A DNA stretch of 64,000 nucleotides, taken from NCBI RefSeq assembly GCF_000003815.2, contig NC_049982.1:7476334-7540333 (forward strand), read 5' to 3'. The position numbers and the translations under genes are program-made. The notes under the pieces were generated by a model. It was not told the origin of the DNA and did not search any database. It saw only the letters and a list, made by a program, of their open reading frames with translations. The DNA comes from Branchiostoma floridae (lineage: Eukaryota; Chordata; Leptocardii; Amphioxiformes; Branchiostomatidae). Positions within the stretch are counted from its first letter, which is position 1. Every line of letters starts with the position of its first letter. Shown in pieces: positions 2,169-55,923 of the stretch.

Positions 2169-20572
<18,404 letters not shown>

Positions 20573-20720
20573 GGCTCTGTGATTCTGCTGTCCCCTCTGT
20601 CAGTGCTGTAAAGGTCTTAGACAACAACGAGACCGAGTTTTCCTCTCGAGGTTTCTCTCGCACAAAAAAATCAGCCCGCGAAAGATGGCTGGTACCACTG
20701 CGCTTGCGTGATGACCTTTG
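20573..20720 (-). promoter_or_regulatory. Candidate DDB1 5' UTR and core promoter
   Basis: The 150 bases upstream of the DDB1 start are GC-richer than the surroundings and lack an obvious TATA box. Near 20685 is AAGATGGCTG, resembling the YY1-type element found at housekeeping start sites, and near 20700 TGCGCTTGCG resembles an NRF1 site. LINE sequence begins only about 220 bases upstream of the ATG, so the promoter must be compact or include repeat sequence. Motif matches are by eye. Confidence 0.35.
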
Positions 20721-22766
20721 GCCTACATGCAAACCTGCTTACTCGTGTAAAAACGTCCTCGATTGCATACACACGGTACCCCTCAACAAACTTTAATAAC
20801 AATAAGTCAAGCGGCAATGACAGAATTTTGAATGAAATGCTAAATTCTGGTAAAATGTTGCTTAAAGAACCTATACTCCACTTGTTTAACACTTGCTTAC
20901 AAAATGGTCATTTCCCGCAAGAATGGTCAGTAAGTCATATTGTTCCTACCCACAAGTCAGGAGACACCTCCCTGCCAGATAACTACAGAGGGATTTCTAT
21001 AATCAGCTGTTTAGGGAAATTATTCTCCTCCATTCTAAATTCACGCCTTGTCAAATACGCAGAACACAATAACCTCTTCCAGCCACACCAAGCAGGCTTC
21101 AGACAAAACTTTAGAACTACCGATAATCTGTTTGTTTTAAGTACACTAGTTAGCAAATATCTAAACAAAAACCGTCAACTTTACGCTTGCTTCATTGATT
21201 TTAGCAAAGCATTTGATTCTGTTTGGAGAAACGGCCTCTTGTTTAAATTGAGTAAACTCGGTATTGGTGGAACATTTCTAAAAGTAATAGAAGGCATGTA
21301 TTCAAAGACTATAAACTGCGTTAAATCTAAAAATGGATTGACTGAAACTTTTGTTACTAACTGTGGTGTGAGACAAGGGTGTAACTTAAGCCCTACATTA
21401 TTTAACCTTTTTCTTAGCGATATTGTGTCCCAATTTGACGGTACTCCTACGTAATCCCCCACTTATGCACAGCAAAACTGTCCCATGCTTGTTGTATGCT
21501 GACGACTTGGTAATTTTTTCCGAGTCCAAACAGGGATTACAGCATTCCTTGAACAATCTGGAAAATTATTGTGCACTTTGGAAATTAAAAGTAAATCTTA
21601 GGAAAACTAAAATTATTGTATTTACAAAGGGTGGCAGTCTACCTAAAAACTGTTCTCTCCTGTTTGATAATCGTGAAATAGAAGTTGTAACTTGTTATAC
21701 TTATCTTGGTATTATTGTAAGTGCAGCTGGCACGTTTAAAGCTAACAACAAATACCTGAGTGGCAAAGATCTGAAGGCTTTATTCGGAATAAAACAATCT
21801 TTAGATAAAGCCACCGCCTCATTACCAGTTAGAAACAAACTTTTCGATGCATGTGTCAAACCTATTCTACTTTATGGCTCAGAAATATGGGGCGCATTTA
21901 AAAGCCCTAAAACCTGTGCCATTGAATCTGTTCACCTTAAATTCTGCAAACAAGCACTAAATGTCCCCAGACCAGCATCTAACCTTGCCACAAGAGCGGA
22001 ATTAGGGAGGTACCCCATTCAACTGGAAGCCTCCCTGAACGCTATCAAACACTTTCTAAGAATCCGTCAAAACGTGCCAGCTGACAGTCTACAAGCCGAC
22101 GCCCTATCTTGTCAATTACAACTAGATACTAATGGAAATAAGTGCTGGGCGTCCGGCGTTCGTAAGATACTGGAGGAATGCGGTTTTGCCTACATATGGA
22201 GATCTCAGATATCTCTAGGAACAAACCTATTACCTATAACCAACGCCATCAGCCAACAATTAAAGGATATTTACATTCAAACATTTAGAACCGAAATACA
22301 CAATGACAACCGGGACAAATCTTTCGGTAACAAATTACGAACCTATAGATTATTCAAGACTATTTATAAAGAAGAAGAATATCTGATGGTGAAAAACATA
22401 CAGCACAGAGTGGCTGTCACTAAACTCCGGATTAGTTGCCACAAGTTACATATCGAAACTGGAAGGCACAACCGCACCCCTCTGCAGCATAGAGTCTGCC
22501 AATTTTGTGATCTACAACATGTAGAAGATGAACAGCATTTTATTTTACACTGTAAATTGTACCATAATGAACGGATTGTGCTTTATGAATATATCAGAAA
22601 AGAGTTCCCATATTTTGAACATCTTAATGCAACGGATAAATTTCTATTTTTGATGCGCCTAGACAAACCCTGTATATCAAACATTATATGTTCTTATATC
22701 TACACCTGTACAAAGAAGCGAGAAGATGTCGACCATCCTGTTAGCTTAGTACCTTCAACTAGTTAA
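20708..22766 (+). pseudogene. LINE reverse transcriptase, frameshifted
   Basis: Two overlapping open frames together cover a reverse transcriptase. The first (to about 21454) contains the fingers and palm motifs AGFRQNFRTTDNLF, DFSKAFDSVW and GVRQGCNLSPTLFNLF. The second (from about 21423 to 22766) starts with the catalytic YADDLVIFS box and continues to a C-terminal CQFCDLQHVEDEQH....C motif resembling a zinc knuckle. The frame changes at about 21450, at Gly-Thr-Pro-Thr, where a stop interrupts the first frame, so the copy cannot make a functional enzyme. The closest clade is uncertain (CR1/Jockey-like by motif style). Confidence 0.82.
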
Positions 22767-24838: not shown

Positions 24839-26524
24839 TCATTGATCATACACGAGTACGGTGACACAAGAAATTGTGTTAAACAGACCCTTGGCCATGG
24901 TTCCCACATGGCTGAGTGACTGGGTTTCTGGATCTAAACACATGACAGCTGAGCGAGCTGCAGTGTTCTCATAGCCTCCGTAGGTGTGAATCTTCCCTTT
25001 GAATACAGTCATTCTATAGCCTAGCGGAGCACCAGATGCTACCTTACTCCAGAGACCACCGTTTTTGCCAGGCGTGAAACAAAAAATCTGTGAACCTACG
25101 CTAGTATAGATACTGCCATTGAGAACTGCAGAGGCTGATGAATTTCTACCTGCATCAGGCATGTCCCTCATTGATTGCCACTGGGAATCACCTGGGCTGA
25201 AGCGGTACATGGTAGGTGTTGGTTCAAAATTATCATCAACCCCACCCATGACATATATGCTGCCATCTAACACTGAACATGCATGACTGTACTTTGACTG
25301 TGGGAGAGGAACGCCTTCAGTCCACATGTTCTGTCTTCGGTTATAGACCTCAACAGATTTTTGTGCTTTACAGAAGATGTGCAAGCCACCAATTGCATAC
25401 ACTTTACCATACAACACTACCAAACTGTACATGTAAGTGTACCGCAATAATTTCATTGGAGCAAGCTTGGACCAGGAGTCCAGTTCTAGCTGGTACAGCC
25501 ACACATCCCTGCCCATACACATGATAATGTCACTTGTGCCCAGAACAGCCACATTGCGCACACCACACAGACTTTCGGGGTGAGTTATATCTTTCCAACT
25601 TGAGCTTGTTGGCTCTGCAGAGTAGGTCATTCTCATGTCCTCCCCAGGTTCAGTTCTATCTCGTCCTCCAAAGATCACTACTGCTTCCCTCAGACCGCTG
25701 GCATGGCGAGGAAGGGTGCGAGGTGACTGGACCTCTCCCGGAAAGTGCTGGCATCTGCGAGCTTCTGCCATGACATCATGACAAGACTTGCGTACGGCCT
25801 CGTTGGTCTCCACATTCTCAGAGAAATACTGCTTGTCCATGAATGGGAACCTGACCAGTTCCATAAGCTCCTTCATGTACCTCTTCCTCTTCCTGGTGTC
25901 GTGGTTGATCCATGTCATCACTGCTGCATACACGACTTCTTCAGAAGCATTAAGGTCATCAGATGAGATGATTGTACTGAGCTGGTCCTTAGTCAAAGAA
26001 TGGAACTCGGGGGTTTCCCTGACTGTTCCAAACTCCTTTAAGACACACAGCCTAGCTTTCTTCTCCAGGTCTGGGCAAGACAGCATGTTGCCTGTTTGCA
26101 TCATCTGCAGACAGTCTTTGGCACTCAGATTGTTGGATATGAAGGTCTCACAAGCATCATGCACAGGCAGGATCCGGAAGAAGTTGGCTCCTTCTAGCAG
26201 TTTCACAGCATTGTCTTCTGTGATGGTGACTTTTGATGTGTAGGCGTAGTCAACAAGAAGCTGCAAGGCACCAGGGCTGACTTCATGTATGGTCACTTTG
26301 TGCTCTCTGCTCTCACGATGTCTGTTACAGAACATTGCACGAAAGTACTCACTACAGGCAGCCAGAACATTTCGATGGCATGGAATCTCTTTTCCGGAAA
26401 CACAAAGGACAACATCTGTCAGCAGGCTGTCAGACCGCAATTCCTGTAAACCCTGCAAGAGGGAGCCTGCATGCGGATTGTGGCAGAATTCGAATGCTGC
26501 CTGTGATCTCTGTACCTCTGCCAT
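24839..26524 (-). CDS. BTB-BACK-Kelch protein (KLHL family), 561 aa
   Basis: Kelch-like proteins usually act as substrate adaptors for CUL3 ubiquitin ligases: the BTB domain binds CUL3 and the Kelch propeller binds the substrate. The whole coding region is one exon. BTB spans about residues 29-130 (LTDVVLCVSGKEIPCHRNVLAACSEYFRAMF is split here as LTDVVLCVSG..IPCHRNVLAA..SEYFRAMF). BACK spans about 135-235, and five or so Kelch units follow from about 265 to the end (for example YAIGGLHIF, YVMGGVDDN, HTYGGYEN). Start choice: an acceptor (TTTTGCAG) ends at 26537, so 5' UTR precedes the exon and the first AUG is MAEVQRSQ at 26524; the frame extends slightly upstream without an ATG. Its vertebrate orthologue is unclear (KLHL6/24/35-like group by impression). 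Confidence 0.9.
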   Translation of the reverse strand: MAEVQRSQAAFEFCHNPHAGSLLQGLQELRSDSLLTDVVLCVSGKEIPCHRNVLAACSEYFRAMFCNRHRESREHKVTIHEVSPGALQLLVDYAYTSKVTITEDNAVKLLEGANFFRILPVHDACETFISNNLSAKDCLQMMQTGNMLSCPDLEKKARLCVLKEFGTVRETPEFHSLTKDQLSTIISSDDLNASEEVVYAAVMTWINHDTRKRKRYMKELMELVRFPFMDKQYFSENVETNEAVRKSCHDVMAEARRCQHFPGEVQSPRTLPRHASGLREAVVIFGGRDRTEPGEDMRMTYSAEPTSSSWKDITHPESLCGVRNVAVLGTSDIIMCMGRDVWLYQLELDSWSKLAPMKLLRYTYMYSLVVLYGKVYAIGGLHIFCKAQKSVEVYNRRQNMWTEGVPLPQSKYSHACSVLDGSIYVMGGVDDNFEPTPTMYRFSPGDSQWQSMRDMPDAGRNSSASAVLNGSIYTSVGSQIFCFTPGKNGGLWSKVASGAPLGYRMTVFKGKIHTYGGYENTAARSAVMCLDPETQSLSHVGTMAKGLFNTISCVTVLVYDQ

Positions 26525-26536
26525 TATACCTGAACC

Positions 26537-29500
26537 CTGCAAAACAGAAGGACTTATTGATCAGCTATATATCCAGACAGAAGTCATTGGTGGCTATTAT
26601 ATTAAAAACTGAGCAAAGGTACAAGAAGTTTCATTTTGAGGTCCCAGAGGTGCCAAACTTGTCAAGCAGATTGTAGCAGAAAATAATCAATGTTATGAAC
26701 ATCTTCTACTTACATGTACCTGTAAGCTCTATGCTATAGCTACTTATTTCAGCCTGAATTCTGGAGCAGTTAGAAACAACCTCAGTGTGCATGAAAACTT
26801 GACATTCTTTTTCTTCAAACATAACAATACTGTTACAATGGTTGTTTTTTAAAATCTCATTCCTGTCAAACACCAAAGTTTAAAACATGTGCACTAGCGT
26901 ATTTTGATTCTGAATTTATGAGCTAAAAAAGCAGGGTGTTTACAAGCATAACGTTACACTTTTAAAGCGTAGGAAGAAGAATGCTGTGTTTCCAGCTTCA
27001 TGACTAACCCTAAGCAAAACCTGCTGATCCTTTCAATCTCACATATGAGTGATGAAACAAAAGTCATTAAGTTTTAAATTTCCTCAGCAGGCTACCCTTT
27101 CCGGGTCACAGGGCTAGTGTGACCTTAGCCCACCCTGATAGCATCCCATCTTTTCTGGAAACCCTTATTTAAAGTAGGTCCCAGAGGGGGGTATACTAAG
27201 CCGACGTTTAGTCTCAGACACAATTTGACATTTCGTTGGAAACAACAAGGTACGCAATATGATAAGCTGTTTAAACTTGTTCTGATCGTAGCTAGAACAC
27301 TTGGGTCTGATTCTCAGTGATACTACCAGTACCAGTACTACTACTAAGAAACAGACGTCTGTATAAACGGACGGTCCGGACTTGTTTTAGTTCCAACACC
27401 TAGATCATAACCTTACAAATTGAGATCGATACTGATGATAGAGCTGTTTTCCCACGCCAAGCTGAAAATTAACTTGACTCTAAGTTTCAAAGACTTCACC
27501 TGCACTACTTTGGTCAGCAAAGGAGCATTCAAACCGTCGTAAGCGGTAAGTGTATGCCTCCTGGACTGTGGTCTGTGGAATGCGTCGAGTCCTGAACGGA
27601 AGAGCGGGAAACTTTGATGAGTTCAAAGGTCAAATCTATCTGGGACAGTCGAAAATATGAGAGGGGGTATTTCAACGCCTTGAGCCCTCATGCTATATAG
27701 GCTTTTGCTATTCATTTCTGCTAGTCTAATAGGTCCACATATTGCTGTTTTCGTCCACGATTTTGCCACTGGAAGATTTAACGTTATGTAACGCATAGTG
27801 CGTTGCAGATTTTTGTGCATGTATGTGCGCGCTTTTGTGTTGCAACTTTTGAGGTGTCTCGAAATATCATTTAATTTTATTTTTAACATTAAAAGACGTT
27901 TAACGTTAATAATCTTTAAAATTCTAGCAACATATCACGATTAAAAATAATGACTTTAAAAATTAAAAAATGGACTGTGTTGATTTCAAATTTCATAATG
28001 CTTACATTCTCTGGTGAGGTTTGTGGAGTCGTAGATCGGTTAACCGCTTGTAGCTCATGTTCTGTTAACGTTAGATTCTTAATTGCTGATTACCCTCACT
28101 AGCGCTCCATGAAGATAGAGATACTGGATTAGGTCCGGAATAGTATTTGATGGGTGGGGTATTCAATATCCGTATTCGGTCGAATATCTTAAAGAACCTC
28201 TGGATGGATTGTAATGGGCCAACGATTTTAAAGTGCTTTTGGGCCCTCTGGTGGCTGACCTGGATACTACAGCAGGACTTCACCTTTGTATTTATTACTG
28301 GTAACGTTACCCCTTGTTCTTGTTAGAGTTCGTGTCATGATAGTACTGCATACCTGCAGCTGTACAGCCTATTGTTGCCGTGGCGTTGTCTTGCTGACGA
28401 CGTAGTTGTGAGGTCTGAATGTTGAGCGTCATGTCTTGTAGTCTTTGTTGGTTTAAGTTATAGGCATGATTCCTCTTGTGATCAACCATTACCAGTTCCA
28501 TTCCATCAAGCGGACATGACTGTCCATTGTCACTATGTGTATACCATGTACTTGCAATTAGCCCTCGGGCACGAACTTGCAAATAAACTTCTATTATTTC
28601 TGTACCTCATATGAAGGTAATCCCTTCCATTCCTCTACGGGTATCAGATAGAAATACAGATATCATCGCCTGAACGTTTCAGAACATTTTACGATGTTCT
28701 TGTCTGTCACAAATATTTTCAGCTACGCTATGCCATATTTAGGAAATATTATGTGTATCGGTCATCAGTTCGATAGTGTAGTAAGCCTCAATAGTTGCTC
28801 ACAAATAGATAAAATTTATACAGAACCCTGTTTTCAAACTGACGCCGATGTAGCCTCCCATTTTTGTTAGAACAAATACCAACCAAGCCATGGCTTATTG
28901 TTTGCCCAATAACTATAGCGCTACAGCGTAGAACTAACCACGACTTTTCGAGATATGTTTGATTCATAGTATTACGAAAATGTGACATCAACACCAGTGT
29001 GCGAGTGAATGTATGAACGACAAACTCCTTGGAACGACGACGGGTATAATCCCCAAATATTCTTACTTTATTTCGAACCTTCTGATAACATTTTCAGATT
29101 ATTTGAGTCCATACCGTGTCTCAGAGCTGGATTTGAACATCAGCTAATATAAAGAAGGTGCAGGGTTCAAACGAATTCCCGCAGACTGTTTCCAAATTTC
29201 TCCGATTGCTTCTACCAGCATCTTTTCTGGTTAGCACACCCAGCCGTCTTCCTTTGGTTTTCGAGCGATTTTGGACAGGATAGAAAATCCTGATACTTTC
29301 CGTCACATAACCCTGCACCTCCTTTAACCCTGCACCCCCCTAGATTAGTGTTACATGGTTCTGTCCAAGTAAACGCTATAAAACGCCAGATACTAAATAA
29401 AGGCCGTGGAGTATTTCCAATTTAGATATTTTGGATAAATGTTTCTTTCAAATATTTAGGGGGGAAAGTATGAGTTTTTTCCTTGTATCTTAGGGCCTCG

Positions 29501-46500: not shown

Positions 46501-49495
46501 GCGCTGCAGATGCCAACGCATGTGCACATTTGCCACAAAGAGCCATATTTTTCTTTATCAACCAAGAGCCAGATTGCAGTACTCTATGACGACATCCATT
46601 CCTTTCCAGGCTCGCTTGATGAAGCAGCGCGAGGAGGAAGAGCGCAAGCGCAAAGAGGAGGATGACAGGAAGAAGAAGCTTGCCAACGTGAACCTGCACA
46701 TAGGCGGCTACCTGTCCCGGGTAGGTACCTGGCACGGCTACTGTATTACATAAGGGTGTAGTCACATGAGCGTGTATATAAGTCCGTATGACTATGAGGT
46801 TCGTATTGACATTTTTGTCACACCCATCTCAACCGCTTTCTGCCAGTTTTAAGTACTGTACTGGGCCGTACCGAAACCTGGCACAAAACGATTGAGATGC
46901 GTATGAGATGCGTATTGTGTGTACGACTGCGTATGACAAAAGATGCCAATACGAACCTCATACGGACCTGATATACACGCTCGTGTGACTACACCATAAG
47001 CCACTTCACAGATTAAACTGTGTATGCGCAACGAGATGCATCGTGGGTAATGTAACAAAGGTGAAGGCCTCTAAGGAGTAGACCTTGCTTAAATAGACGT
47101 GATTTGTTTATGTCTTAAGGGCCTTCAACTTTGACTTATTAACTATAGTACGTCTTGCTGCGCATGCTCATACGCCGTGAATTGTTTACTAAAGTCGGTA
47201 GTGCCTATATCTAGTCTCCGACACTGCCTTTGCAATTTTGAACAGTGAAAAGTACTTGTATTACTCTTTTAGAATTGCGGCATTTTGTGCGTTGATGTCT
47301 CACTAGTGGTGCGCCATAACCTGGGCCTAAGCCCACTTTAGTAGCGAGGTACGCACATTGCTGTAGATACATAGGCAAGAAAAGCTGAAGCTAGAATCTG
47401 CTTGGGGAGAAGTGAAATAAAACAGTAAAGCTAGTAACTCCTCTTGCTTCAAGTATTGTACGAGTAGTCTAAACTCCGCTGTCCAGGGCTGTAACTGGCC
47501 GTTTGGCGGGCTGCTATAAGCGAGATTTAATCAGGCTATTGTACGAGTATTAAAACGTTATTTAACGTCTGGTCTCGTCTGCCGTCTGATTCCACCCAAC
47601 TCAGCTCGAGGGGAAGGAGAAGGGTCCCAGCAAGCGGCAGCTGGCGCAGGAGGCCAAGCGGAAGAAGATCATGGCCCGCGTGAAGGCCCTGCCGGACCTC
47701 GGCACCCTGTCCGACCACGAGCTGCGCGAGAAGGCGCAGGAGCTGCAGGACAGGCTCAAGTTCTCCGAGGAGGAGCTGTACGACATGAAGGACAAAGTGC
47801 AGCGACAGGTTTACGACGTGAGTACGTCAAGGATACGGTGCTTGCACTTTGCAGACATAAGAAATGATCTTTTGGGGCTACTAGTATTACCGCTGATGAT
47901 CAAGTTTACATGTTATGTAGACTGCAAAGCTTTAAATTGGTTACTGCAACACTTGCCACACTTCAAACTGAGACAGAAGAAGTTATGAGTCTCCTATCGA
48001 CATCTAAAAGGTATCACACATTGAGGTTTTCATGAGACGCTTGTGTTGAATACGTACATACATTATTGCCGCTGTGGTTGTTATTTCCTTTTACCGTTCA
48101 AGTGTTCATTTGTGGTACTTATATTTTCAGATGGACCGTTTGAGGACCACCATTAATGAAGCCATGGGCAAATTGTAAGTACTGTCTCCCTAGATGTACT
48201 AGTACATGAGTTATGCAAGAACCAGATTCTCATCATGAGAGTGTACCGTGCTTAGACCGAAATACGTCAACGGGGCTGGTTCGTTGGTTGGTTTCGGAAC
48301 GTGCTCAAAGGCAATTTGATCGCCTCGAACATGAGCCGCGCCGCCGCGTAGGTACGTGCTTCTACAAGAAAAATTACGTGTACCAGGGCTCGAATTACCA
48401 CCTGCATATGCAGGTTAGTGTAGGTAAAATTGTAGCTGTGCAGGTATTTCTGGTGTCTACCTGCACCTAACCTGCACTGATCCATGGACCTATAGCTAGC
48501 TACTTTTTCCGATACTAAACAATTACAGACCGACACACCTTGCTAATACCCCCTTTCCACTAGGACGGCGCTCCCGCCGCGCTCTCTCTGCGACATAGAA
48601 TTTGACAGATCGCTCAACGAATTGTTTAAATAAGAAACGAATCTTTTTACACTTTGTGTGTTTTGTTGTCCTCTCGGTCTCACTTTTACATGCTGTCTGA
48701 TATTCCCAGTAAGAAATGAAAGGTTACACATATCCTATTTAGGTCGCAGTGAGAGCGCATCGCGATCGCCGTCTAGTGGAAAGGAGGTCTTAGAGTACAT
48801 TTAGCTTGACTAAAATCGCGCTCCTAGCGGCCGGCCTTACAGTTGCCACCACGAGGGGGTCATTAACCCGAGCCAACGAGAGCTTTTGTAAACACATAGA
48901 CAGAGGGGACTCGAGATCAATAACCCCAATTGGAGATACTTGGCTTGGGACTTCCTCAGCATCAATTGTTCTATATATAGTGCAAATGAAAAGGTCAGGG
49001 ATATTGATATGGCATTAAGAAATTCACAAAAATTAAGTAAGACAATCCTGGAGGTATGAAGTCTCTGACTTCTTGTTTCTTGTATGTCTCTACAGCAACA
49101 AGCCTGGCACAGCCGGCGGCGCACAGAGAGGACGGGTAAGGTCACATTTTTGTTCTTTTGAGCTTATTCCCTCCTATAGGCTTATCATTATGCCGCCTCG
49201 GTACGTGTTAAGGTGTAGTGCAATCTCCACCACAGAAAGTGTAGACTTTAAATTGCATGTCGTAGGTTGTAGTAAAACTATATTCAGTACATTGTTAAAT
49301 GAACAACTTTGGTCCCGTTTTGGAGCATTTATCACTGGTTGAACAGCATGGTTGGACTTCGTTTTAAAACATTGACTTTATTTGAATTGTAACAACACGA
49401 AGGATACTGGACAAGTTGAATCACGATAAATTTCCCTGACCTTTTTGTCTTTGTCTTTTCTCGAACTATAGGTTGCTGGGAAGTTCGGAAAGTAA
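43563..49495 (+). CDS. TNNT: Troponin T, plus-strand paralogue (286 aa)
   Basis: Second troponin T, tropomyosin-binding subunit of the muscle thin filament. Exons: 43563-43582, 44202-44360, 44707-44761, 45209-45325, 46119-46196, 46610-46720, 47605-47817, 48131-48174, 49096-49135, 49472-49495, all in phase. For exon 44707-44761 I used the GTATGT donor at 44762, because the upstream GTTTGG would break the frame. The protein starts MSDQEEEYEGEEEVEEE, runs into a Glu-Pro dipeptide array (EPEPEPEPEPEP), and then has the conserved ELEEFIKKHFEKRAKEEEEL helix, LANVNLHIGGYLSR, and the coiled coil HELREKAQELQDRLKFSEEE. It ends Val-Ala-Gly-Lys-Phe-Gly-Lys. Its C-terminal coding part is split by one more intron than in the minus-strand paralogue and lacks the Lys-Trp near the end. 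The exon at 43563 has an acceptor 16 bases before the ATG, so a non-coding exon lies upstream. Only one version of the 111-base exon is visible. Confidence 0.93.
46333..46410 (+). mobile_element. tRNA-like SINE head in a troponin T intron
   Basis: The stretch has an A-box-like GGCGCAACTGTCAGAGCG and, about 30 bases on, a degenerate B-box (GGTCCCAGGTTTCATACTC), the spacing of a tRNA-derived pol III promoter. The cloverleaf is not preserved, and unrelated sequence follows without a 3' acceptor stem. This fits an old SINE or tRNA pseudogene in the intron between exons 46119-46196 and 46610-46720. The full extent is not defined. Confidence 0.55.
46755..46995. mobile_element. 241-bp MITE with about 60-bp inverted repeats and ATAAG target duplication
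   Basis: Both ends begin GGTGTAGTCACA.GAGCGTGTATAT reading inward, and the arms pair over roughly 60-70 bases with scattered mismatches. ATAAG flanks the element at 46750-46754 and 46996-47000. There is no coding capacity. It lies within a troponin T intron, close after the donor at 46721. Confidence 0.78.
48550..48787. mobile_element. About 240-bp MITE with 45-bp inverted repeats
   Basis: The left end starts CCCCTTTCCACTAGGACGGCG and continues to CTGCGAC near 48593. The right end is the reverse complement of a close relative (GTCGCAG near 48744 to CTAGTGGAAAGGAGG). The arms match over about 45 bases with several differences. I did not find a convincing target-site duplication, so exact ends are approximate. 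It lies in the intron between 48174 and 49096 of troponin T. Confidence 0.65.
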
Positions 49496-53223: not shown

Positions 53224-53230
53224 TATAAAA
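53224..53230 (+). promoter_or_regulatory. TATA box of the LPMO-like gene
   Basis: TATAAAA in the context AAGTATAAAAGTGG, 144 bases upstream of the start codon. A start site near 53255 would give a 5' UTR of about 120 bases in the same exon as the ATG. A clear TATA box is typical of regulated, tissue-specific genes. Confidence 0.6.
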
Positions 53231-53373
53231 GTGGTCAAACTTCAACCAAATCTCAGTTTGCTCAGGAAGAAGAAGACGAAAGAGGACTTCATCTTGTGTT
53301 ACTTTAAATTCCTGACAACTCTATCTAAAAAAGTTTGTAACAGTTTTAAACGTACTTGTAATATTGGCCAGAA

Positions 53374-55923
53374 ATGAAGCTATCTAAAGGCACTTTTTTG
53401 AGCGGCCTGGTCTCGCTCCTGCCGCTCCTGGTGGCGGGCCACTCCTGGATCGCCTGCACGGACTACACGGAGATGAACGGCGAGTACTGGGACGCCGACA
53501 AGTGCCGGGCCTTCCCTCGGTCTGGCCAGCAGTTCGTGCCGAAGACGGAGTTTGGCATCGACAAGGGGTACAACTTCCACGGGGCGGAGGAGCAGGCCTG
53601 CCGCACGGTGAGGAATGACGCCGGGGCGTACACGGCGGGTTATCCCATGGCGGTGTACTATCCCGGGCAGAGAGTCGTCTTCACGCACCCCACCAAGGTA
53701 AGGCTGCGGCCTGCTATGGTCTGTCTTTCGGTTACCGACGCACTGTATGTTCTTGGCTGTTCAAGCTCTAATAAATTTAATTCGCCATCTCCTTTAATTT
53801 CGTCCGGCCAACTCGGCCAGGATAGTTTTTAGCTAGGCTGACTTTGTATAAGATCCGGTAAAGAAAAAGATAACGTTATGCATGATTTAGTGCACGATTT
53901 GGACTTACTGTAAAGTACGGTCTACACGACTATCTCAGAATTATGGGCGCGGTCCGTCGATCTTTCAAAGAGTGTGGTCTGGCTACACATGGGACTCTGG
54001 GAGGGTACATATATGCGTGTTTTATTTAATATTTCCGTTGAGTTTAAGAACTGGTTATATCTTATTCTTCATCTGGCAAGTTAACTTTACTGACCATGTA
54101 CTCATTTCCCCGCGTGACAGAACCACGTAGCCGATCCCGACTGCACCAACAACCACATCCCCGACAACGGCAACAAGATCATGATCGGCGCGAAGGATGC
54201 CGACGCCGACCCGAAGTTTTCCGAGTTCCAGCTGCTGGAGGACCTCGGCGTTTCTCCGACGGGGAAAGCCGAGTCGGTCATGACGTCTTACCCCAAGCCG
54301 GGTTTCCAGAACGCGCCCAAGTTTTGCGAGAACACGGACAAAGCTCTGGCCACTGGCAACTTCACACTTCCGGCAGACATGCAACCAGGTAACCACAGCC
54401 AATTTTCGTTAGATTTCAACGTAATATGTGGGATTTGTACACTTATTCATGATGTCGCGAACAGCTTTCCTACTTCAGACATTTTCCGAATGATAGATGC
54501 GTGACCCGTCGAACTTTATATTTTCCGCCACCTGTAATTGATATACGAAGCTCTCATCTTGGGAGCGGTCTTCTCTGATTTTTTAACTTACGTCCTCTCC
54601 TTTTGTTCTCAGGCCGCTACACGTTCCTGTGGGCCTGGAGCTTCAACGGCCCCCAGGACACGTACACCAGCTGCTGGGAGGCGGACGTGGTGGCCTCGCA
54701 GTCCGAGCGGGATTCCCGCCTGCAACAGCGCGGGCAGGACAGCGGCGACGCCTGCGACTTCAACACGAACTGCAACGGCGGGAACTCCGGCGAATCCGGA
54801 ACCGGAGGGGAATCCGGAACCGGAGGGGAAACTGGCGGGGAATCCGGAAACGGAGGGGAATCCGGAACCGGTGAAGAGACGGCGGGTTGTGACAACTGCC
54901 TGGCCTTCTCCTACACCATCCTGAAGACCAACGTGGCGACCGGTGAAATCAGCATCTCCGGTGACTTCCCGCCACCGAGGGCCGATCCCGACCACCCGGG
55001 ACAGGTGGACGTCCGGTTTCCGTTCCCAGTCAACAAAGCTGTGGTGAGCTGAGTTTGGAAACTTAATTAGGGGTTCGTTGAGTCACTTTAAAGACAAGAT
55101 GGAAATGCTTCTGTGAAGACAGCGTTCGCATTCTAAAGATGTCAATGTTTGAAATCAAAGTTTTATTGAGACTGGAACTTTACAAATTCATGTTACTTGT
55201 CTTCAGTGGTTCATTGGGTCAAGAAGATATAATTGTAAACGTTTTTATCTATATCAAAAGCGAGAAGATAAAACTGGCAGTTTTATTTAAACATTACGCT
55301 GACAGTATTATATCAAACTTTGAATGTTTCTATGTTTCAAATACGTACATGTATTTCTCATCTTAATCTAACGATCATAATTGTTCTCAAACTTAACAAC
55401 TCGTATCCCTCCCCCACAGTTTAAGATCGGCAAGAGCACGATCATACCCTCCACCGAGACAACTGACGGCGTGTTCGTGCTGAGTGAAGAGGACCTGGCC
55501 CCGCTGGCAGGCAACACGATAACCGTCACCGTCAGGTACGACAGCGGTGCCGGGCCGGACTGCTTCAGCCAGGCGGGGCGGGTGCGCATCCAGCACGTCG
55601 GGTACATCGCCCAGACCACGCTGGACGTCAACTTCGAGCAGGAGTGGAACGGGGGCGGGATGGGGGGCATCGCCCTCCCGGACAGCCGGAGGACCCTGTC
55701 CGAGGACTGGTGGGTGGAGGTCCAGTTCCCATGTCCGGAACTCACCTTCCAGGTCTGGTACGGCAACGACCAATCATCGGCCGAGCAGAAGGCTCTGGGC
55801 CAGTACGTCATCCGCCAGCCCGAGTGGGAGACGCACAACACCGACCACGTAGGCTTCACGGTGCAGAACAGCGCATGCGAGCTGGATGACGTCGTAGCGA
55901 CCTTGGTAACTGCCCCTAAATAA
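53374..55923 (+). CDS. Secreted copper-histidine-brace protein, LPMO-like, with CBM2-like module (508 aa)
   Basis: Exons 53374-53697, 54121-54388, 54613-55043 and 55420-55923 join in frame. A signal peptide (residues 1-22, ending LLPLLVAG) would expose His23 as the mature N-terminus, as lytic polysaccharide monooxygenases require. The second brace ligand candidate is His110 (Lys-Asn-His-Val-Ala-Asp, after VVFTHPT). The motif GRYTFLWAWSF...DTYTSCWEADVV (198-224) resembles the LPMO C-terminal strand, with Tyr215 as axial-residue candidate. A linker of Gly-Glu-Ser/Thr hexads (about 254-288) follows, then a beta-rich domain (about 290-390). A C-terminal region (about 405-495) has the layout of a family-2 cellulose-binding module (EWNGGGMGGI, DWWVEVQFP, FQVWYG, PEWETH, HVGFTVQN). 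LPMOs cleave chitin or cellulose oxidatively using copper. I cannot place it in a named AA family. Function is inference. Confidence 0.78.
54829..54876 (+). repeat. Short coding repeat in the linker of the LPMO-like gene
   Basis: Part of a run from about 54790 of units close to GGGGAATCCGGAACCGGA, encoding Gly-Glu-Ser-Gly-Thr/Asn-Gly. Five to six imperfect 18-base copies form the flexible linker between the catalytic-like domain and the C-terminal module. Confidence 0.75.

Follow-up and report, generated by a model that had tools for sequence, protein, structure and literature searches.

The window analysed here, a 64,000-nucleotide stretch of the Branchiostoma floridae genome at C4:7476334-7540333, contains a complete coding gene on its forward strand. 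Four exons with GT-AG splice sites join to one open frame of 508 amino acids, which runs from an ATG start to a TAA stop at exactly the coordinates given in the original prediction. The gene and its features are:

53224..53231, + strand: TATAAAAG, possible TATA box, weak, 150 bases 5' of the ATG
53374..55923, + strand: whole coding gene, from the ATG to the end of the TAA, four exons
53374..53697, + strand: exon 1, with the likely signal peptide (residues 1-22), His23 and the start of the putative catalytic domain, as far as THPTK
54121..54388, + strand: exon 2, central part of the catalytic domain, opening with N109-H110, in which His110 is the candidate second brace His
54613..55043, + strand: exon 3, with the GRYTFLWAW...DTYTSCWEADV strand, the candidate axial Tyr215, the Gly/Glu/Ser linker and the start of the C-terminal region
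55420..55923, + strand: exon 4, with the remaining C-terminal region, a CBM2-like module from TTLDVNFEQEW and the stop codon

The TATA-box candidate is considered weak because the window holds four such matches against a chance expectation of 3.05. In the spliced protein, HSWI starts at residue 23 and is directly preceded by V-A-G, in agreement with the predicted signal peptide ending just before His-Ser-Trp-Ile. Signal peptidase cleavage is expected to follow small residues at positions -3 and -1, and the residues preceding His23 fit this rule, so that cleavage is likely to leave His23 as the mature N-terminus. At the 21 other loci of the family described below, the corresponding three residues are A-A-A (16 loci), V-A-A (2) or V-A-G (3). 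The further motifs that had been read from the DNA are likewise present in the spliced protein, namely Asn-His at 109-110, Tyr-Thr-Ser-Cys at 215-218 and the Gly/Glu/Ser linker at about residues 253-286. In mature numbering, His1, His83, His88 and Tyr193 correspond to precursor His23, His105, His110 and Tyr215.

Paralogues, conservation and selection

The genome itself (513.4 Mb, 431 contigs) was searched by tblastn with the catalytic domain. At least 81 pieces were returned at E <=0.01, and at least 22 loci carry an exon-1 piece: one on C4 (the window gene), two on C9 (one of them a fragment), two on C19 and 17 on C10. All of the exon-1 alignments start at the first residue of the query, the mature His, which is informative because a local alignment could have opened further in. 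Gene models were then built for the 22 loci with a spliced-alignment script. HSW stands at the mature start in all 22 models, a count that is only partly independent since the query itself begins at that His. The second-His motif HPxxxH(V/A) is found in 20 of the 22 loci and the axial strand in 18.

The 17 exon-1 starts on C10 form a tandem array at 13.405-13.515 Mb (C10:13405000-13515200), with all matched pieces on the same strand and a few copies broken or incomplete. Across the family, in-frame stops occur in three models (13409389, beside a stretch of N; 13426847; and the C9 fragment at 15.69 Mb), and the axial strand is absent from four (13426847, 13431928, 13438391 and the same C9 fragment). 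The two C19 genes (C19:1137861-1150686 and C19:1196103-1205006) lie about 58 kb apart and are near-identical in the exons compared, reflecting either a recent duplication or an artefact of a two-haplotype assembly.

Intron positions are largely shared. The phase-0 intron at mature residues 83-91, which precedes exon 2 of the window gene, is shared by all but one of the 21 other models, and the phase-1 intron at mature 175-186 is common to the window gene and 19 of them. Most other models contain two extra introns, one in phase 2 at 26-30 and one in phase 1 or 2 near 131-156; the window gene carries neither of these, and the second is missing from the C19 genes as well. The presence of shared introns on a chromosome-sized contig argues against both contamination and recent transfer.

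Two sets of models were used for comparison. The first alignment (A1) contains 13 of the 22 models, with nine omitted as broken, incomplete or near-duplicate, and the second consists of the 15 most complete models, on which conservation, dN/dS and the tree are based. Mature His1, His83 and His88 are invariant in all 15, while His47 is retained in 13 and His98 is found in the window protein alone. The axial column, occupied by Tyr193 in the mature window protein, holds Tyr in three models and Phe in 12. The median dN/dS is 0.256 (range 0.14-0.44; calculated over those 70 of 105 pairs whose dS lies in the range 0.05-1.2), clear evidence of purifying selection on the family. The tree contains one split with full support (100/100), with the genes of the window, C19 and C9 on one side and the C10 array on the other, although long branches lead to the C19 and C9 genes and the midpoint root serves for drawing only. 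Members of the first group combine an axial Tyr with the CBM2-like module, whereas those of the array have an axial Phe and no module in the stretches read. The gene in the window is thus real and intact, and it belongs to a chordate family that is both expanded and constrained.

In their screen for LPMOs, Vu and co-workers are reported to have looked for a post-signal His, a second conserved His and an N/Q/E-X-F/Y motif (PMC5320794). Compared with that screen, the lancelet family shows HSW at every locus and the second-His motif at all but two, and every one of the 18 strand-bearing loci has Tyr or Phe at the axial position. N, Q or E precedes this aromatic by two residues in 9 of the 18; the residue there is Asp in the window protein (D-T-Y) and Ser, Asn, Gln or Leu elsewhere. 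Taken with the similarities described below, these features suggest that the family consists of LPMO-like histidine-brace copper enzymes, a reading to which we assign a probability of roughly two in three.

The proteins could instead adopt an LPMO-like fold with a copper-binding histidine brace and yet cut nothing, acting as copper carriers or recognition proteins that the module would merely anchor. The second-sphere Glu/Gln varies within the family, and tandem expansion of the kind seen here is common among recognition genes. There are precedents, since LPMO-like brace proteins without peroxygenase activity are reported to exist (PMC12186267) and the AA11 protein CWR-1 is described as functioning in allorecognition without catalysis (PMC9550227). 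However, an axial aromatic in 15 of 15 models, the clear purifying selection, and the CBM2-like module on the window gene and three others all speak for a cutting enzyme, and without being decisive they leave the non-cutting role rather improbable.

Similarity to AA11 LPMOs and DUF7492

When the window protein was searched against all PDB chains, AA11 LPMOs were returned at E of 3.3e-5 and 1.6e-4, and no further match fell below 0.7. AA11 proteins were also the best matches of the C9 copy (9.4e-5), the C19 copy (8.9e-4) and one C10 copy (0.0098) searched singly, and of a 13-member profile (best 7.2e-5), which found three distinct sequences at E <=10, all of them AA11. Across these four single members and the profile, the PDB matches at E <0.01 are AA11 LPMOs only. 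With the C9 copy, an unrelated 2-oxoglutarate dehydrogenase (0.03) outranks the third AA11 protein, 7P3U (0.062), which carries the PDB label 'Endoglucanase, putative' and is identified as AfAA11A (PMC8668981). As a control, a bacterial AA10 query run under the same settings returned 28 PDB sequences at E <=10, from which 4MAH, 9EXJ and 7P3U are absent; for this one control sequence, the AA11 signal is therefore not general to LPMO queries.

In every search the AA11 match spans only about 45-55 of 218 residues and is confined to the strand PGRYTFLWAW...YTSC. By counted positions, the alignment with 4MAH places window Tyr215 on Tyr140 and Asp213 on Glu138. The copper ligands of 4MAH (AoAA11) are given as His1, His60 and Tyr140, and the AA11 Glu is said to do the job of the AA9/AA13 Gln two residues before the Tyr (PMC5094447). 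Similarly, the copper site of AfAA11A is described as His1, His71 and Tyr133 (PMC8668981), and by counting, Tyr133 falls inside the 7P3U strand matched by the profile and the C9 copy. The Asp in the window protein is not disqualifying, because the E139D variant of AfAA11B is reported to have lowered activity that is still present (PMC12186267).

The position of the second brace histidine is less directly indicated. No search aligned the family's second His with the AA11 brace His, and when the AA11A fragment around His71 was compared with five members, the best alignments lay elsewhere than at the GQ...H motif. His110 is nevertheless the most likely candidate, with His105 as the alternative, because its Gly-to-His spacing of 12 is close to the 13 of AfAA11A (Gly58-His71).

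The family thus resembles the fungal AA11 proteins AoAA11 (4MAH), AfAA11A (7P3U) and AfAA11B (9EXJ) in its predicted N-terminal His and in a PGxYTxxWxW...YxxC strand with an aligned axial Tyr. AfAA11B is likewise described as modular, with a linker and a C-terminal domain (PMC12186267), that domain being X278. The differences are that the match covers about 45 residues rather than the whole domain, that Asp stands in place of Glu in the window protein and Phe in place of the axial Tyr in 12 of the 15 models, that the second His is unaligned, and that the genes lie with introns in an animal genome. We therefore keep the family outside AA11, while considering a distant AA11 relation probable. 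Coincidence is another reading of so short a match, the protein then being an unrelated secreted beta-sandwich that carries the mature His and the strand motif by chance; when profiles of the family and of 12 bacterial AA10s were compared, the result (0.7%) fell short of significance, even though the axial strand again gave the best local match. Such a coincidence seems very unlikely, given that AA11 came first for each of the four members searched singly, that the axial-Tyr columns coincide, and that all 15 models retain His1 and His88.

A similarity was also found in Pfam. The window protein matches DUF7492 (PF24320) with 32.4 bits (E 7.1e-8), above the gathering cut-off of 27, and residues 21-233 align with positions 2-247 of the 265-position profile. 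When the signal peptide is removed, the strongest part of the match runs over mature 161-209, so that the axial strand carries much of this similarity too. Among the A1 members, 7 of 13 match at E 1; of four other members run singly, the C19 copy scores 26.7 bits and the C9 copy 20.9 (cut-off 27), and two C10 copies give no match at E 1. The likeness to DUF7492 is strongest at the axial strand; Pfam assigns this domain no function, and neither the name DUF7492 nor PF24320 was found in the literature searched. In NCBIfam, neither the catalytic nor the C-terminal part had a match at E 1.

Animal LPMOs described so far are, in the sources consulted, mainly AA15, with LPMO14-type proteins, which we take to be what is now AA16, in bivalves and cnidarians. 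A member of either family, too diverged for the models used, would be another explanation, given that AA15 is reported to be widespread among animals (PMC5823890) and that animal sequences are said to account for about 2% of LPMO14 hits and to come from bivalves, sea anemones and stony corals (PMC5320794). AA15 proteins of insects, molluscs, cnidarians and others are also described as secreted, with an N-terminal His, family expansions in some species and, in some proteins, CBMs (PMC5823890). However, neither the window protein nor any of the 13 A1 members matches PF03067 (LPMO_10, AA10/AA15) at E 1; many LPMOs are known to escape this model, 26 out of 30 in the case of one fungus (PMC5320794). 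The nearest PDB sequences are AA11, no listed PDB match is named AA15, and none of the 13-member profile's matches carries the name AA16. Membership of a known animal family is on these grounds quite unlikely, with AA15 and AA16 set apart by the Pfam model and by PDB names rather than by direct sequence comparison. The proposal of an animal histidine-brace branch other than AA15 is favoured by the many conserved paralogues and the AA11-only PDB matches, with copper binding and catalysis as predicted properties.

Wider searches returned no relative in viral contigs (single-protein and profile scans) or in contigs of prokaryote genomes (profile scan); among 198 genomes from a single bacterial phylum the profile matched none, an empty result that carries no weight either way. 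PF24320 and PF03067 gave 0 matches each against the lancelet genome, which is no sign of absence, since the window gene, split by introns, also escaped PF24320. Among the literature matches listed, from a search outside which most subscription journals fall, no such LPMO family was found in lancelets. A further family, AA18, is reportedly credited to a 2025 Nature article. A histidine-brace candidate outside the named AA families has been described elsewhere, the Egh16-like TrsA of a nematode-trapping fungus, put forward as an LPMO family and with reported copper-dependent oxidase activity (PMC12377627); TrsA belongs to another organism and another named domain, and is likened to the window protein by description only.

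The C-terminal module and proposed function

The C-terminal region had been predicted to carry the pattern of a family-2 cellulose-binding module. The Trp/aromatic pattern is suggestive of CBM2, but the Pfam CBM_2 model (PF00553) scores the window module at 14.7-14.8 bits, below its cut-off of 24; the C19 module reaches 22.0 bits (E 2.1e-4), also below it, and the C9 module gives no match. Taken as a whole, the 219 residues of the C-terminal region match nothing in Pfam at E 10, and searched alone against the PDB they return a single match, an unrelated oxidase (E 1.2). A profile of three modules had as its top two PDB matches 2CWR (labelled chitinase, 0.18) and 2RTT (labelled ChiC, 0.42), with an unrelated lactonase next (0.77). 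We take 2CWR and 2RTT to be chitin-binding CBM2-type domains, with which the window module has the Trp/aromatic pattern in common, albeit through weak matches. In the genome (E <=0.1), the module is found on C4, on C9 and in both C19 genes, and it has no similarity to the catalytic domain. These observations suggest a CBM2-like module.

The LPMO-like mechanism would proceed as follows. Signal-peptide cleavage would expose His23, whose amino group and side chain, together with the side chain of the second invariant His, would hold one copper, with Tyr215 in the axial position (Phe in the tandem-array paralogues). Once reduced, the copper site would cleave glycosidic bonds of an insoluble polysaccharide oxidatively, with O2 or H2O2 as co-substrate, and the flexible Gly/Glu/Ser linker would join the catalytic domain to the CBM2-like module, which would hold the enzyme on its substrate.

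Tunicin-like cellulose, algal cell walls and chitin had all been put forward as substrates. Chitin now appears the likelier, whether in the animal's own gut membrane or in food, because the module's best PDB matches, weak as they are, are labelled chitinase and ChiC and because the gut membrane of B. floridae is reported to be chitinous and devoid of cellulose (PMC6109156). The listing of AoAA11 as active on beta-chitin (PMC5094447) points the same way. The family is thus probably chitin-directed, a statement that carries less confidence than the LPMO-like mechanism itself. An active LPMO directed at cellulose or dietary algal cell walls would accord with the likeness of the module to CBM2, named 'cellulose binding domain' in Pfam, and with the description of lancelets as filter feeders (PMC6109156). 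Against the AoAA11 activity, the composition of the gut membrane and the module's top PDB matches, at E of just 0.18 and 0.42, such a substrate has a minor share of the probability. A tunicate LPMO orthology group is also reported (PMC8704543).

If the LPMO-like reading is correct, these genes would add to the animal LPMOs an expanded LPMO-like family that looks unrelated to the others, in a species with a chitinous gut membrane, and would be a candidate set of enzymes for gut-membrane turnover in a chordate. It would also provide a function for a Pfam domain of unknown function. More tentatively, we propose that the lancelet family of at least 22 loci may share its origin with fungal AA11 and DUF7492, the latter being a new LPMO family; that two branches may have arisen within it, one of Tyr-axial enzymes bearing a chitin-binding module and one of Phe-axial single-domain enzymes in the tandem array; and that the family may remodel or renew the chitinous gut membrane.

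Other features of the window and its contig

Several other coding segments are found in the window:

5963-6400 and 11754-12059, - strand: likely DDB1/CPSF1-like exons (CPSF_A 9e-10, over the cut-off; Beta-prop_RSE1_1st 25.7 bits, just under its cut-off of 26.9)
17158-19392, - strand: open frame resembling a DDE_1 transposase (PF03184, 1.7e-19) and containing a long repeat rich in Thr, Ala and Ser
20708-22766, + strand: retroelement reverse transcriptase (RVT_1), split across two overlapping frames
24839-26542, - strand: BTB-BACK-Kelch gene in a single open frame
47671-47988, + strand: troponin-like exon (PF00992, 22.0 bits, under the cut-off of 26.2)

Elsewhere on the window's contig, a cluster of fluorescent-protein genes lies at C4:24570345-24647499. 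Searching the genome with a fluorescent-protein query returned 27 pieces at E <=1e-10, of which 16 fall in this cluster and are 55-88% identical to a lancelet-derived fluorescent protein.
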